Origin: Pseudovibrio exalbescens
GTDB lineage: Bacteria > Pseudomonadota > Alphaproteobacteria > Rhizobiales > Stappiaceae
Direction: 5' to 3'
Assembly: GCF_028737195.1 (NCBI RefSeq)
Contig: NZ_JAQZAJ010000001.1
Span: 434,001-498,000 of the forward strand
DNA: 64,000 bases
Shown here: piece after piece, positions 2,592 through 60,431 of the stretch
Layout of the letters: the number at the start of each line of letters is the position of its first letter
Position numbering within the stretch: position 1 is the first letter of the stretch
Program-made: the position numbers and the translations under genes
Notes under the pieces: model-generated
Seen by the model: the letters and a program-made list of their open reading frames with translations, nothing else
What the model was told of the DNA's origin: nothing
Database searches by the model: none

Positions 2592-3050
2592 ATGCCGTCA
2601 TTCAAGACAGTACACCGTGTTCAACATACAGCAGAGGATATGTTCCATCTCGTTGCTGATATTGAACAGTACCCGCGATTTGTTCCGCTTTGTCAGAACC
2701 TTGTGGTCCGTGGACGACGCCCTTTGGAGGCGGAACGGGAAGTGCTGATCGCCGATATGACGGTGGCTTACAAGGTGGTGAAGGAGACTTTCACCAGCCG
2801 AGTTACTCTTGATCCGTCGAATCTGGAGATTCTCGTTGAGTACCTTGACGGGCCCTTCAAGCATCTTGAGAACCGTTGGAACTTCCTATCTCCAGAAGAT
2901 CACCTCTGCGATATCTCGTTCTACATTGACTATGAGTTCAAGAGCCGAACGCTCGGGGCTTTGATGGGAACGATGTTTGATCGTGCTTTTCGAAAGTTCT
3001 CTGAAGCCTTCGAAGCACGGGCAGATGAGGTTTATGGCGCTGCTGCCTGA
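2592..3050 (+). CDS. Coq10/RatA-family START-domain protein
   Basis: A 152-residue single-domain protein of the SRPBCC (START-like) fold. The pattern LVADIEQYPRFVPLCQ near residue 20 and the C-terminal LGALMGTMFDRAFRKFSEAFEARA are typical of the Coq10/RatA group. In mitochondria Coq10 binds ubiquinone and is needed for respiration; enterobacterial RatA has been described as a ribosome-associated toxin. In alphaproteobacteria, next to lipA, the ubiquinone-binding role is the more likely one, by inference. It has its own unit after the lipA terminator and converges on the minus-strand genes that follow. Confidence 0.88.
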   Translation: MPSFKTVHRVQHTAEDMFHLVADIEQYPRFVPLCQNLVVRGRRPLEAEREVLIADMTVAYKVVKETFTSRVTLDPSNLEILVEYLDGPFKHLENRWNFLSPEDHLCDISFYIDYEFKSRTLGALMGTMFDRAFRKFSEAFEARADEVYGAAA

Positions 3051-3085
3051 GGTGTGTCCTCCCGCTCTATACAGAGCGGAAAGCG

Positions 3086-3568
3086 TCAGGGCCTTGCATC
3101 ATATGGTTGCGTTGGCAGAAGGGGGCTTTCTTCTTCCTTCTTCGAGCCAAGGCTGCGATCGTTGAACGTTTTTCGAATGGCCTCAAACCGGTTCTTACGA
3201 TCGGTTGTTATGTTCCGGGCGTTGAGCATGGCGTCTTCCAAGGAAACATAAACGCCGACTTGACGCAGGCTGACATGCTCAGTTGGATTGTCGCACAGGA
3301 TATCCCAGCGTCCATTCTTGTGACCCTCCAACGTGACCTGCCGACCAGATTGCTCTTCCCATTTCGACCAGACCACTGTGTAGGGGCGCAGCCAGAAGTT
3401 CGAGCCGCAGATCTTGACACGCTTGTGGCCATCCTTTGCCACGCTGAACATCTTGTGGCTGCCGACAAACTCACCTTCATTATCTCGTGAAATCATATAG
3501 ACCTCCGAAGCAAGGCCGGAGGTCGAAAACAGTGCGCCGAACAGAGCAAGGGCGAAAAGACGCTTCAT
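3086..3568 (-). CDS. Secreted protein of unknown function
   Basis: I do not recognise this 160-residue protein. A clear signal peptide is visible (MKRLFALALFGALFSTSGLA, cleavage probably after the alanine at 20). The mature part is small and mixed-charge, with two cysteines (in VKICGSNFW and DILCDNPTE) that could form a disulfide in the periplasm, and a basic C-terminal tail. It is downstream of cinA on the same strand with a 70-base gap that holds an inverted repeat. Signal peptide, intact frame and ATG support a real gene; the function is open. Confidence 0.65.
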   Translation of the reverse strand: MKRLFALALFGALFSTSGLASEVYMISRDNEGEFVGSHKMFSVAKDGHKRVKICGSNFWLRPYTVVWSKWEEQSGRQVTLEGHKNGRWDILCDNPTEHVSLRQVGVYVSLEDAMLNARNITTDRKNRFEAIRKTFNDRSLGSKKEEESPLLPTQPYDARP

Positions 3569-5549: not shown

Positions 5550-6593
5550 ATGCATACGGAATGTGCAGAATCTTTCGGCGCTCAGAAAACAACCATGACA
5601 CTCATCGGCACGATCCCTCTTAGAAACAGGTGCGTTCTAGCGCCGATGTCAGGTGTGACTGACTTGCCGTTTCGCCAGCTTGCCTGGCGTTTTGGCGCCG
5701 GCCTCGTGGTGAGCGAGATGGTAGCCAGCGAGGCGTTGGTAACAGGGCACCCGGAATCCTTGATGCGCGCAGAAGGGGAAGGGATTTCTCCGCACGTCAT
5801 TCAGCTTGCAGGCCGAGAGGCGCATTGGATGGGTGAGGGCGCGCGGTTGGCTGAAGCAGCTGGTGCTGACATCATCGACATCAACATGGGATGCCCTGCC
5901 AAAAAAGTGACAAGCGGTTACTCTGGTTCAGCGCTCATGAAAGATCTTGACCATGCTTTGACATTGGTCGAGGCCACAATAGCTGCCGTGAAGGTGCCCG
6001 TTACCTTGAAGATGCGGCTTGGCTGGGATGAGAATTCCATTAATGCGCCTGAACTTGCGCGCCGTGCAGTGGATGCCGGTGTGCAGATGATTACGGTGCA
6101 TGGGCGTACGCGCAGCCAGTTCTATAAGGGCAAAGCCGACTGGGAAGCGATTGCCATGGTGCGCGAGGTCGTTGATGTGCCTCTGGTCGCCAACGGCGAT
6201 TGTTGCAGTTTTGATGATGCGACCGAGATGCTGCAAAAGTCAGGCGCGGACATGGTGATGGTGGGTCGCGGTGCTTATGGGCGGCCATGGTTATCCGGGC
6301 ATGTTGGGCACTTCCTTGAATCTGGGGAGCGGCTTGAAGCGCCAAAGGGCAAGGATCTGGCAGATTTGGTTGTAGAGCACTACGACGCCATGCTGGATCA
6401 TTATCCGGGCGATATCGGGCTTCGATCAGCGCGTAAGCATATTGGCTGGTACATTGAGGCCAATCTTGAAAAGGCACAGGTGTCGGGTGCTGTCATGAAG
6501 CAGCTAATGACGTCGCAAGATCCGGATTGGGTTCGGATGACTCTTCACCAACTTTTTTCCGACAATACAAACTATGTGCGGAGTGCTGCATAA
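5550..6593 (+). CDS. dusB: tRNA-dihydrouridine synthase
   Basis: FMN-dependent TIM-barrel enzyme reducing uridines of the tRNA D-loop. The motifs [32 protein letters not shown] with the catalytic cysteine, and [12 protein letters not shown] are all present. The family is also called NifR3 because it commonly precedes ntrBC. The upstream ATG gives 347 residues; the later in-frame ATG at 5595 (MTLIGTIPL) fits the usual family N-terminus better and may be the true start. Its stop codon overlaps the ntrB start by one base (TAATG), which indicates translational coupling in a dusB-ntrB-ntrC operon. Confidence 0.95.
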
Positions 6594-15422: not shown

Positions 15423-15591
15423 AGCGTAAGCTTCTTGGGGGCAATAACAAACTAAAGGTATTTCGGCGGTTCCAATCTAACTCGGGCAATTCTTGTGTTT
15501 GTTGGCGTCAGAGGGAGCCGTTTGAGGATGGGAACATTAAACACAGTGGATGCCGCGGCCGCGTCCGCTGAGAAATAGGATAATAAGAGAG

Positions 15592-15849
15592 ATGGCTGAC
15601 CGCGCTCAAAATCTTCAAGACACATTTTTGAATCATGTTCGTAAGCAGAAGACACCGCTTACAATTTTCTTGATCAACGGCGTCAAACTGCAGGGCGTCG
15701 TCACTTGGTTTGACAATTTCTGCGTATTGCTGCGTCGGGACGGACACTCCCAGCTCGTGTACAAACACGCAATCTCCACAATCATGCCAAACACGCCAGT
15801 ACAATTGTTCGATCCTCAGGACGAAGAAGGCGAAAAAGCAGGAGGCTGA
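15592..15849 (+). CDS. hfq: RNA chaperone Hfq
   Basis: Hexameric Sm-like protein that binds A/U-rich RNA and promotes pairing of small RNAs with mRNAs. 85 residues with Sm1 ([20 protein letters not shown]) and Sm2 ([10 protein letters not shown]) motifs intact and a short acidic tail. The ATG at 15592 with an upstream AATAAGAGAG was chosen over a more distant in-frame start. The stop is followed at once by the hflX TTG start, forming the classic hfq-hflX pair. Its presence is relevant to the candidate small-RNA array at about 57.1 kb. Confidence 0.98.
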
Positions 15850-54684: not shown

Positions 54685-56088
54685 TTAGTGGCCGGTCTTT
54701 GCGATCCACCCTTCAAAAGCAGTAAGGCCGCGTTTTGACATGGCCTGCTTCCTGGCGCGGCTTTTTTCTTTGCCACGCAAGCGCTTGCCATCTTCTGTCT
54801 TCGGCAACTCTTCCAATGGTGGCAGCAAGCCGAAGTTGATGTTCATTGGCTGGAAGGAGCGGGGCCCTTCGTTATCAGTGCGCGAAATATGGCCGCCAGT
54901 AATATGGTTCAGAATCGCACCCATGGCCGAAGTCGCTGGCGGCAGCTCCATGGTTTCACCAAGGAGCTCGTGAACAGCGAACAGGCCAGCAAGGCACCCA
55001 ACTGCCGTGGACTCTACATAGCCTTCACAGCCAGTGATCTGCCCTGCAAAGCGCACATGCGGCGCCGCCTTGAGCTGTAGTTGCTCTGTCAGCAGCTTTG
55101 GCGAGTTCAGGAAGGTGTTGCGATGCAGACCGCCAAGACGGGCAAACTGAGCGTTTTCCAAGCCTGGAATCATGCGGAAGACATCGGTCTGAATGCCGTA
55201 CTTCAACTTGGTTTGGAAGCCGACCATGTTGTAGAGCGTGCCCAACGCGTTGTCCTGGCGAAGCTGAACGACCGCATAAGGCTTCACCTCCGGGTCGTGG
55301 GCATTTGTCAGACCCATGGGTTTCAATGGACCGTGGCGCAGCGTTTCGCGTCCGCGTTCCGCCATAACCTCGATTGGCAAGCAGCCATCAAAGTATGGGG
55401 TGTTTGCTTCCCATTCCTTGAAATCGGTCTTTTCACCACTGATCAAAGCATCAATGAATGCTTCATATTGCTCCTTGGTCATGGGGCAGTTGATGTAGTC
55501 CTTGCCGGTCCCACCCGGGCCAACCTTATCATAGCGTGACTGGAACCAGGCAACATCCATGTTGATGCTGTCTTTATGCACGATCGGTGCAATGGCATCG
55601 AAGAAAGCCAGTGCATCTGTATCGGTGTGCTTGAGAATGCTTTCGCTCAACGACGGCGAAGTGAGCGGGCCTGTTGCGAGAATGACTTGTCCCCATTCTT
55701 GCGGTGGTACACCGGGCACTTCCTCACGGCGAACCTCGATTAGGGGATGGTCTTCAATCGCTTTCTGAACCGCTTGAGAGAAACCATCTCGGTCCACTGC
55801 GAGTGCGCCACCTGCCGGGACCTGGTGCGCGTCAGCGCAGCTCATGATGAGAGATTTGGCCATGCGCAGTTCCGCATGCAGCATGCCCACAGCATTGTTT
55901 GCGGCATCGTCAGAGCGGAAGGAGTTGGAGCAAACAAGCTCTGCCAGTCCTTCTGTCTGGTGCGCATCAGTCTTGCGGTGTGGGCGCATTTCATGAAGTA
56001 CGACGGGATGGCCTTTTTGCGCGATTTGCCATGCGGCCTCTGATCCGGCAAGGCCGCCGCCGACCACGTGAATTGGTTTTTCTGTCAT
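54685..56088 (-). CDS. trmFO: tRNA U54 methyltransferase, folate/FAD-dependent
   Basis: Flavoprotein making ribothymidine at tRNA position 54 using methylenetetrahydrofolate. 467 residues: FAD-binding [17 protein letters not shown] at the N-terminus, [31 protein letters not shown], the family region [18 protein letters not shown], and the C-terminal [20 protein letters not shown]. The start at 56088 ([12 protein letters not shown]) was chosen because the upstream extension of 46 codons is unlike the family. The gene is alone on its strand here. Confidence 0.95.
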
Positions 56089-56295
56089 TCCGAGTCCAGT
56101 TGGTACAATAAGATGGAGGCGCAGCGTGTGCGCTCTCTCTGCGGGCCTGACTTCAGACCTCAGTCGTCCAAGGCTTACACACAGCCATGATTTGTTGCCC
56201 TTGATTACAGCGCAAACCTGTCGCATGCAATAATTTGAATAGCCAACCGGGATATGCTGTCCCTCGGTTTCTTCGTCAAGTCTTGGAGTTCTTAG

Positions 56296-56949
56296 TTGAA
56301 GCAGATTCGCTTAGGCCTGATTTCGGCCCTGTCCGCGTGCGCTGTTCTTGCCGGGTGCATGACCTTGGCCGGGACCAATCCGAGCACGTGGTATAGCTCC
56401 ATGAATGGCCGGGAGCCCTCAGGAAACCGGATCTATATCTGCCATGGTTTTGGTTGCACCTACAAGACCGTGGTAGCTTTCTCTGAAAAGGACCGAAAAG
56501 CGCTGGCGCGGATCTTCAGCAAAGGCAAGGCGTCGTCTCCCTCAGCAGAGCGTGAAGCTCTCTCAAAGGCGATCATCTGGCAGGAGAGGCGCGTTGGGCG
56601 CATTGTTGGCTCTTCAAAAGACATAGGTGGTCTTGATATGCGCAATTCTGGCGTACGAGGCCAAATGGATTGCATTGATGAGGCAACTAACACGACCAGT
56701 TTGCTCATCTACGCTCAAGAACAAGGTTTCTTGAAACACCATACGGTCTCTCGCCCGGTAGCGCGTGGTTTCTTCCTTGATGGACGCTATCCGCACGCGA
56801 CGGCGGTTATCACTGAAAAAGAGAAAGGGGTACAGTGGGCAGTGGACAGCTGGCGTCTCGCCAATGCAATGCCGCCGGATGTAATGCTCCTGGAAAAATG
56901 GTTCCGTGTTCGATCCAGTGAGCTGGAGGTTCCTCGACCTGAGAGTTGA
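56296..56949 (+). CDS. Lipoprotein with possible transglutaminase-like Cys-His-Asp site
   Basis: I do not recognise a named family. 217 residues: lipoprotein signal with lipobox LAGC (Cys21), then a soluble domain. Three residues are placed as in transglutaminase-like cysteine proteases: Cys126 in [11 protein letters not shown] at a helix start, His167 in YPHATAVI on a strand, and Asp184 in WAVDSW. The order Cys-His-Asp, the DCIDEA context and the aromatic neighbours support this, but it is inference. It starts with TTG at 56296, with GGAG eight bases upstream. It is next to the hairpin array on the opposite strand. Confidence 0.7.
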
Positions 56950-57021
56950 TCCGCAAAGGCGCGCGCTGGCCAGTGCCAAGGGTGCTAAGCCTCAAACAAA
57001 TCACGTCAAAAATTTGTCCTG

Positions 57022-57184
57022 AAAAAGCGAACGCCCGCCGGTGGGAGGAATCGGCGGGCGTAACTCTTGTACGACGAAATTGGGAGGAGGTATCGCCGTA
57101 CGCTTTTGCCTTTGGGTATGGGAGGAGGTTACCCGCAGGCTATGTTTTGACGCTTGGGGTTTGGGAGGAGGTCCCCGTTGCGTC
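57022..57184 (-). ncRNA. Tandem CCUCCUCCC-loop hairpin array (cuckoo/CcsR-like small RNA)
   Basis: On the minus strand four stem-loops follow one another. Hairpin 1: 57149-57184, stem GACGC/GCGTC plus GGGG/CCCC, loop ACCTCCTCCCAAA. Hairpin 2: 57114-57134, stem GGGTA/TACCC, loop ACCTCCTCCCA. Hairpin 3: 57069-57101, 9-bp stem, loop TACCTCCTCCCAATT. Hairpin 4: 57032-57060, perfect 9-bp stem CGCCCGCCG/CGGCGGGCG, loop ATTCCTCCCAC, followed after five bases by TTTTT. Loop motifs recur every 38-43 bases. The variable base pair of hairpin 3 is G-U on the minus strand but A-C on the plus strand, and the T-tract is on the minus side, so the RNA is minus-strand. C-rich loops of this kind define a stress-induced alphaproteobacterial small-RNA family. 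The loops can pair with Shine-Dalgarno sequences. The 57185-57430 leader contains no ORF above about 30 codons. Confidence 0.78.
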
Positions 57185-57430
57185 TGAAAAAAGATATAGA
57201 ACAGTTCTTGGATTATTGCACCACATCATTGTGCATGTCAGATATGCATTAGCAGCATGGCAATCCAAAAGACGTATTTTTATGAACTGCGACAAATGGT
57301 GCAATTCCGGGATTTATTCTTGGAATACAACAAAATACGGACCAATAAAATGCATGCCTTATCTCATGAATCCCTAGGATTCGCAGGAATTTTCGGCGTG
57401 TGAATATTTCTCTATATTGTGCACATGCGA

Positions 57431-57457
57431 AAAACCCCGGAAACGATCCGGGGTTTT
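57431..57457. terminator. Terminator of uvrA
   Basis: A perfect 10-bp stem (AAAACCCCGG with CCGGGGTTTT, 7-base loop) with T-tracts on both strands, 37 bases beyond the uvrA stop. A run of nine G (57473-57481) lies between it and uvrA. It isolates the small-RNA array from uvrA transcription. Confidence 0.88.
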
Positions 57458-57494
57458 AATCAGGTACTTTTAGGGGGGGGGCAGCTACGGGTTG

Positions 57495-60431
<2,937 letters not shown>

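Follow-up and report, generated by a model that had tools for sequence, protein, structure and literature searches.

The interval between uvrA and trmFO of Pseudovibrio exalbescens very probably carries a stand-alone gene for a small RNA of about 165-170 nt, belonging to the alpha-r14 (NfeR1) branch of the cuckoo class, with four anti-Shine-Dalgarno loops and a last hairpin that is also the terminator. The array was analysed within a 64,000-nt stretch of contig NZ_JAQZAJ010000001.1 (hereafter, the window), and its structure, conservation, family match, synteny and conserved upstream box can all be read from the sequence itself.

Four motif-bearing hairpins on the minus strand

The nine-base motif GGGAGGAGG occurs at 57082, 57120 and 57163 and at no other place in the window, with a fourth, shorter copy, GGGAGG, at 57043; these are the positions given in a preliminary description of this DNA. 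None of 100 dinucleotide-shuffled versions of the window contained three copies of the full motif, and none of 2000 shuffled versions of the 201-nt region did. Between 57082 and 57171 the minus-strand reading of the three full copies is CCTCCTCCC. From 57184 to 57023 the minus strand forms four hairpins, of which three display CCUCCUCCC and one UCCUCCC in the loop, the last being a terminator stem:

57149..57184, minus strand: hairpin 1, CCUCCUCCC loop at 57163-57171 (MFE fold and loop accessibility)
57108..57140, minus strand: hairpin 2, CCUCCUCCC loop at 57120-57128, first hairpin of the Rfam family RF02344
57069..57101, minus strand: hairpin 3, CCUCCUCCC loop at 57082-57090, second hairpin of RF02344
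57023..57068, minus strand: hairpin 4, UCCUCCC loop at 57043-57049, stem CGCCCGCCG/CGGCGGGCG, third hairpin of RF02344

The predicted fold of the minus strand (57010-57190) has an energy of -64.5 kcal/mol (z = -6.4), with the motif in every loop and 0 of 200 shuffles folding as well, while the plus strand of the same region reached a z of only -2.0 and was matched by 4 of 200 shuffles. Within the predicted transcript, all four loop motifs were open, with mean unpaired probabilities of 0.992-0.999. The fold and the open loops confirm the separate minus-strand stem-loops that had been proposed, and two finer details hold as well, namely a G-U pair in hairpin 3 that is possible on the minus strand only and a U-rich tract (CUUUUU) directly after hairpin 4. 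The proposal that the motif occupies all four loops is correct in its full nine-base form for three of them; the terminal loop has only UCCUCCC. Internal loops or bulges interrupt the stems of hairpins 1, 2 and 4. Together with the CUUUUU tract, hairpin 4 is an intrinsic terminator that bears the motif, in agreement with the preliminary description; our terminator scan was limited to loops of ≤8 nt and was unable to report it. In the genus alignment, 10 of the 14 pairs of helix 5, which we counted as evidence for hairpin 4, were invariant.

Conservation and covariation among relatives

RF02344 matches (E ≤ 0.01) were present in 61 of the 81 genomes searched, this one included, and lay above the family threshold in 32; none was found in 14 control genomes. 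A third match within this genome, at 29.8 bits, has no TCCTCCC loop, so weak matches to the family are unreliable. Across the order, a triple-motif pattern was found in 127 of 397 genomes and its reversed control in 6 (counted by hand), some of the matches (e.g. in G157, G275, G322 and G409) looking like simple repeats.

Within the genus, the array adjoins uvrA in 15 of the 16 genomes searched (again including this one); G010 has uvrA and no array downstream of it. Both trmFO and a small flanking ORF were found at 14 of the 15 loci, the exception being L152, and the number of loops was four at 14 loci and five at one (L177). All 61 motif copies at these 15 loci were closed as hairpin loops by at least five pairs, compared with 192 of 1220 (16%) when the flanks were shuffled; this count excludes a fifth CCTCC match at L174, which lies 3' of the terminator there.

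Covariation was assessed in an alignment of 12 of the 15 loci, comprising 11 distinct rows (L152, L177 and L178, which diverged too far or had five loops, were excluded); this same alignment had also supplied the structure tested. Standard pairs filled 92.9% of pair cells over the 11 distinct rows, against 86.7% in shuffles, none of 500 being as high, and 26-49% when pairing partners were slid. Double-sided changes were seen at 14 of 43 pairs (shuffle mean 5.7; matched by 0 of 500 shuffles), and hairpin 3 displays such changes against the nearest relative, G011. The count of further pair types, 35 versus a shuffle mean of 33.2 and reached in 85 of 500 shuffles, was not above chance. The closed motifs and double-sided changes bear out the earlier statement that loops are conserved while stems differ, and conservation of the hairpins in relatives, on which the preliminary description had made its proposal depend, was found together with compensatory changes in the stems.

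Family assignment

In a permissive Rfam scan, RF02344 (alpha-r14) matched 57026-57146 with 56.6 bits (E = 1.3e-9), 2.2 bits below the curated gathering score of 58.8, a score that no member from the genus exceeded (best 57.2 bits). RF02791 (CcsR1) reached 13.9 bits (E = 1.4) in the same scan, against a threshold of 65.3. At default thresholds the window returned a tRNA and nothing else, and the plasmid collection gave no match. The remaining sub-threshold Rfam matches were dismissed, the one to PsrR1 being the uvrA-side stem. Because the RF02344 match spans hairpins 2, 3 and 4, hairpin 1, which sits upstream of the match start at 57146, is an addition on the 5' side.

Judged by its sequence, the array is a cuckoo-class anti-Shine-Dalgarno RNA whose nearest family is alpha-r14 (NfeR1), not CcsR. 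It has four successive hairpins, within the two to four of the class, each exposing the anti-Shine-Dalgarno motif in its loop, and among relatives the loops are conserved and the helices are unconserved in sequence yet paired. Alpha-r14 RNAs are described as having three hairpins with an identical CCUCCUCCC anti-Shine-Dalgarno motif and differing stems (PMC10746234); the window array has four. From the earlier cuckoo/CcsR-type assignment, we retain the cuckoo class and a minus-strand RNA and drop the CcsR branch, and the covariance-model search proposed with it yielded RF02344 at a score slightly under its threshold and CcsR1 at 13.9 bits only.

The four-hairpin form had been regarded as a new variant. 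This does not hold, since SmelA075 and SmelA099, with three and four CCUCCUCCC hairpins respectively and variable stems, were described in 2011 (Reinkensmeier et al. 2011, PMC3927594). With SmelA099 and a range of two to four hairpins for the cuckoo motif in print (PMC4504443), a four-loop RNA is of a known kind. An open frame for hfq (15541-15849, plus strand) is present in the window, as had been pointed out; it lends no support, as the founding alpha-r14 member, NfeR1, is described as a 123-nt, Hfq-independent RNA (PMC10746234).

Candidate promoter region and upstream box

Two candidate elements precede the array:

57194..57199, minus strand: candidate -10 element CTATAT, identical to the published NfeR1 -10
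57233..57257, minus strand: LysR/LsrB-like box TGCTGCTAATGCATATCTGACATGC, one mismatch to TGCA-N6-GCAT, conserved in the genus

The putative start of transcription lies near 57187. Many relatives have TATAAA in place of CTATAT. The NfeR1 promoter is described as combining an LsrB box, TGCA-N6-GCAT, at -72 to -60 with CTTAGAC-N17-CTATAT as -35 and -10 elements, and as being activated by LsrB and repressed by NtrC. In the window, the first 14 bases of the box, TGCTGCTAATGCAT at 57257-57244, lie at about -70 to -57 from the putative start. By eye, no CTTAGAC with a 17-nt spacer was seen before CTATAT, and a consensus promoter scan gave a single report (CTGACA-18-AATAAT at 57241-57212), which is at chance level.

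The extended box lies 86-89 nt 5' of the first motif at all 15 genus loci, from which its consensus was drawn by eye, making that count circular, and it occurs without mismatch in 11 of 14 relatives from the same genus that supplied the consensus; only other genera therefore test it. There, at ≤3 mismatches, it preceded 11 of 16 arrays called stand-alone (shuffles 11%) and 9 of 46 called DUF1127-linked (shuffles 11-13% across both groups), the DUF1127 call being a rough text match that took in at least the stand-alone L043, L044 and L046 and missed the DUF1127-linked L051. Several boxes of the stand-alone arrays of other genera lie at 88-89 nt; six of these belong to a single genus and do not count as independent observations. 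The stricter 14-base box was found at 8 of 57 arrays, with 1.5 expected.

Genomic neighbourhood and the DUF1127 partner

The array lies in a conserved interval marked by the following features:

57495..60431, minus strand: uvrA (NF001503, 1609.5 bits), lying 5' of the array in the same orientation
54685..56226, minus strand: trmFO (NF003739, 676.7 bits), far flank of the interval
56296..56949, plus strand: flanking ORF, lipoprotein-like by eye, without Pfam match, syntenic marker
57430..57458, strand not given: GC-rich stem-loop, flanked by T runs on either side, that separates uvrA from the array, seen by eye

The stem-loop at 57430..57458 is likely the uvrA terminator; the terminator scan did not report it.

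Neither the window nor any of 14 genus loci yielded a DUF1127 ORF (best E = 0.17), and such genes were present elsewhere in all eight genus genomes searched. The earlier remark that no DUF1127 gene is nearby is thus true of this genus, but sister genera have one in the same interval. Among the best-match loci of other genera (L042-L071, with about 1.5 kb of flank each), uvrA appeared in the flank of 18 of 30. In the uvrA-trmFO interval of sister genera, small ORFs end 22-43 nt before the motif array, as they do at L072 (Alphaproteobacteria bacterium AO1-B) and L073 (isolate HF-Dia03), and six proteins from L043, L050, L072 and L073 are DUF1127 (Pfam E = 4.9e-11 to 1e-15). Across L043-L073, the uvrA-trmFO interval of sister genera holds arrays preceded by one or two DUF1127 ORFs.

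Since DUF1127 genes stand upstream of arrays in the same interval of sister genera, their absence here is probably a loss. The simplest reading of these sequences would be a CIN1-type interval in which this genus lost or relocated DUF1127, or of which only a stand-alone second array was kept. Clusters of at least three motifs occur at only 4 of 80 named uvrA loci (L072, L073, L077 and L083), with two motifs at two more, so the position beside uvrA is not general but local to this family.

Predicted targets

Targets of the window RNA are predictions from base complementarity. The pattern GGGAGGA-N3-11-ATG had 103 matches in the genome, a few of them overlapping or inside arrays, against 20 for the reversed pattern, an excess to be expected of Shine-Dalgarno sites anyway. 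Of the 37 GGGAGGAGG copies that the genome contains, 30 were inspected for a nearby start codon. Three of these form the array; among the remaining 27, a start codon 4-13 nt downstream opens an ORF of >100 aa in 12 cases. A Pfam scan of seven of the 12 gave a thioesterase, a GNAT protein, a LacI-type regulator, a hexapeptide-repeat protein, an alpha/beta hydrolase, a chemoreceptor and a flavin/ferredoxin reductase, which we take to be PaaE-like.

Predicted loop-target duplexes for five candidates ranged from -20.7 to -23.8 kcal/mol, excluding the cost of opening the partners, and at one site the array duplex reached -21.2 versus -15.4 for an assumed 16S tail sequence. Of 16 genus genomes, 11 keep at least seven complementary bases at the PaaE-like gene and 2 do so at the hexapeptide-repeat gene; G010 is without the array, yet retains GGGAGGA before its PaaE-like gene. 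As ribosome-binding sites are conserved anyway, conservation of the target sites is not decisive.

One tested NfeR1 target in Sinorhizobium meliloti is described as ntrB. The window contains dusB at 5604-6497 (TIGR00737), with the start of ntrB from about 6593, some 50 kb from the array; ntrB is named by its position after dusB only, and a 60-aa piece from G011 had no NCBIfam match. The leader of this gene in the window has a GGAG match only (-8.5 kcal/mol), and ntrB is not supported as a target here. Its leaders in relatives have GAGGAG in G002, G005 and G007, AGGAG in G003 and G013 and GGGAGG in the outgroup G071; in G011 and G012 the first start has no match of ≥4.

Loop number varies among arrays

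The most surprising result was a by-product of the analysis: the number of loops is variable. A second array of this genome has six TCCTCCC copies, its last hairpin being nested in a long terminator-like stem:

G000:C20:226173-232284 (L187): array near 2912-3092, minus strand, preceded by a 59-aa ORF

By eye this ORF had been suspected to be a DUF1127 gene, which was not confirmed, with no Pfam or NCBIfam family found for it. In one other genus, three loci (L225, L226 and L227, in genomes G245, G264 and G412) have nine CCUCCUCCC-type hairpins in a row, ending in a stem that resembles a terminator; every motif is unpaired in L226, and in L225 and L227 eight of the nine are unpaired throughout. 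A nine-motif array of G223 at G223:C11:600895-601218 was identified by its coordinates. Seven triple matches on one strand were found in 10 of 13 genomes of that other genus, match positions having been established for G223, G245 and G264 only. L223 (around G058:C6:917492-917790) has eight consecutive motif hairpins with all motifs unpaired.

Several other arrangements were observed alongside these. Motif runs in G027 and G046 look by eye like tandem three-hairpin units. At L155, L158, L165 and L173, another array of the genus has about five motif hairpins, a CATGC-rich upstream region and a last hairpin nested in a terminator-like stem. A single CUCUCCUCCC-loop hairpin within a longer stem occurs in three genus genomes (L189 at G000:C20:103353-103487, L176 and L184).

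The six copies of L187 and the eight to nine hairpins elsewhere exceed the two to four given in the published summary of the motif (PMC4504443). No array of more than four loops was named in the literature searched, which did not extend to the paper that defines the cuckoo family or to that on CcaF1, and such arrays may be in print. A tentative generalisation, which we put forward as a conjecture rather less probable than not, is that cuckoo RNAs are modular arrays of evolving valency, mostly with three loops, with four to five at the uvrA locus, five to six motif copies elsewhere in the genus and eight to nine in single arrays of other genera. The uvrA-locus array would then have lost its DUF1127 partner and stand alone under an LsrB-like box, and loop number would tune how many ribosome-binding sites a single RNA occupies under stress.

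Proposed mode of action and alternative explanations

We propose that transcription from a vegetative-type promoter, coupled to a LysR/LsrB-like activator box, would yield a four-hairpin RNA presenting four redundant anti-Shine-Dalgarno loops, with the last hairpin also terminating transcription. On a set of mRNAs, the exposed CCUCCUCCC loops may base-pair to G-rich ribosome-binding sites, of GGGAGGA or longer, and would block translation there, and several equal loops would provide redundancy and higher avidity. Transcription, LsrB control and target silencing are inferred from NfeR1, in which three loops are reported to silence mRNAs redundantly by covering ribosome-binding sites (PMC10746234). 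By the same analogy, we accept anti-Shine-Dalgarno action, one of the modes suggested earlier, as the likely one.

Four other explanations were weighed. Chance repeats of GC-rich DNA have a negligible probability, being contradicted by the motif shuffles, the accessibility of the loops, the covariation within the genus and the closure of motif hairpins, and we rejected them on shuffle statistics and conservation. It is also very improbable that the GGGAGGAGG copies lie in a translated plus-strand frame or act as its ribosome-binding sites. A 143-aa ORF (56946-57377) is indeed open in the window and over 94 aligned residues in L169, and some plus-strand frame spanning the array is open in L152, L161, L169 and L174. 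In 11 of 14 relatives, among them the closest (G011), stops nevertheless interrupt the aligned translation of the 143-aa ORF; the L152 and L178 alignments were uninformative, and substitutions track the stems. Translation of this frame had been named as evidence that would count against the small RNA; the stops speak against such translation, and we rejected a coding role on these grounds.

An RNA of the CcsR type, cut by RNase E from the 3' UTR of a longer mRNA and maturing into several shorter RNAs, appears quite unlikely. Its parent mRNA would ancestrally have been that of DUF1127 and here perhaps that of uvrA, which lies upstream on the same strand; DUF1127 ORFs directly 5' of arrays in the same interval of sister genera favour it, and Rhodobacter CcsR1-4 are described as originating in this way. 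The lack of DUF1127 in the window and at 14 genus loci, the terminator-like stem seen by eye between uvrA and the array, the conserved upstream box at a fixed distance and the RF02791 score far below threshold count against it; the score and the lack of DUF1127 led us to reject it as the primary reading. Somewhat less unlikely, but still improbable, is a sponge that mainly titrates some carrier of GGAGG, be it a class of mRNAs, a small RNA or a protein, instead of silencing individual mRNAs. Four loops would raise its titration capacity, and several equal loops in one RNA, up to eight or nine in other genera, are in keeping with it, but the three-loop NfeR1 is reported to silence specific mRNAs. 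The stand-alone anti-Shine-Dalgarno RNA is the reading we prefer over all four.

The array is a well-supported addition to a broad class of anti-Shine-Dalgarno RNAs, and it shows one chromosomal interval in two states, with the DUF1127 partner gene and lacking it. What makes the array interesting is the way loop number and gene surroundings change among relatives. The arrays of eight to nine loops pose a testable question, namely whether loop number sets both the strength and the breadth of silencing, as it would for a multivalent inhibitor.

Comparison with known systems

The cuckoo family is described as having two to four hairpins with a conserved loop motif and helices without sequence conservation, often adjoining a small DUF1127 gene (Reinkensmeier and Giegerich 2015), and the window array resembles it in hairpin number, loops and helices. 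At the CIN1 locus, small DUF1127 genes are described as paired with CcsR-like RNAs (PMC10253847). Unlike CIN1 and cuckoo loci, the window array has no DUF1127 gene beside it, though one is present in the same interval of sister genera.

CcsR1-4 of Rhodobacter sphaeroides are described as processed from a DUF1127 mRNA with an RpoHI/RpoHII promoter. The window array differs in that the CcsR model gives it 13.9 bits only and in that the CcsRs are cut from that mRNA; by family name (RF02791), the two have a CCUCCUCCC-motif RNA in common. RS0680a is presumably CcsR1, in which case the CcsRs would have two loops each.

Compared by description and not by sequence, SmelA099 is like the window array in its four CCUCCUCCC hairpins with variable stems, and SmelA075 has three such hairpins to the four found here. 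The closest likeness is to NfeR1 of Sinorhizobium meliloti, with which the array shares CCUCCUCCC loops on divergent stems, a GC-rich last hairpin that bears the motif, a candidate CTATAT -10 element and, roughly -70 to -57 from the putative start, a candidate box resembling TGCA-N6-GCAT; it differs from NfeR1 in having four hairpins rather than three, a sub-threshold Rfam score, a promoter without the CTTAGAC -35 element and a weak match to ntrB.
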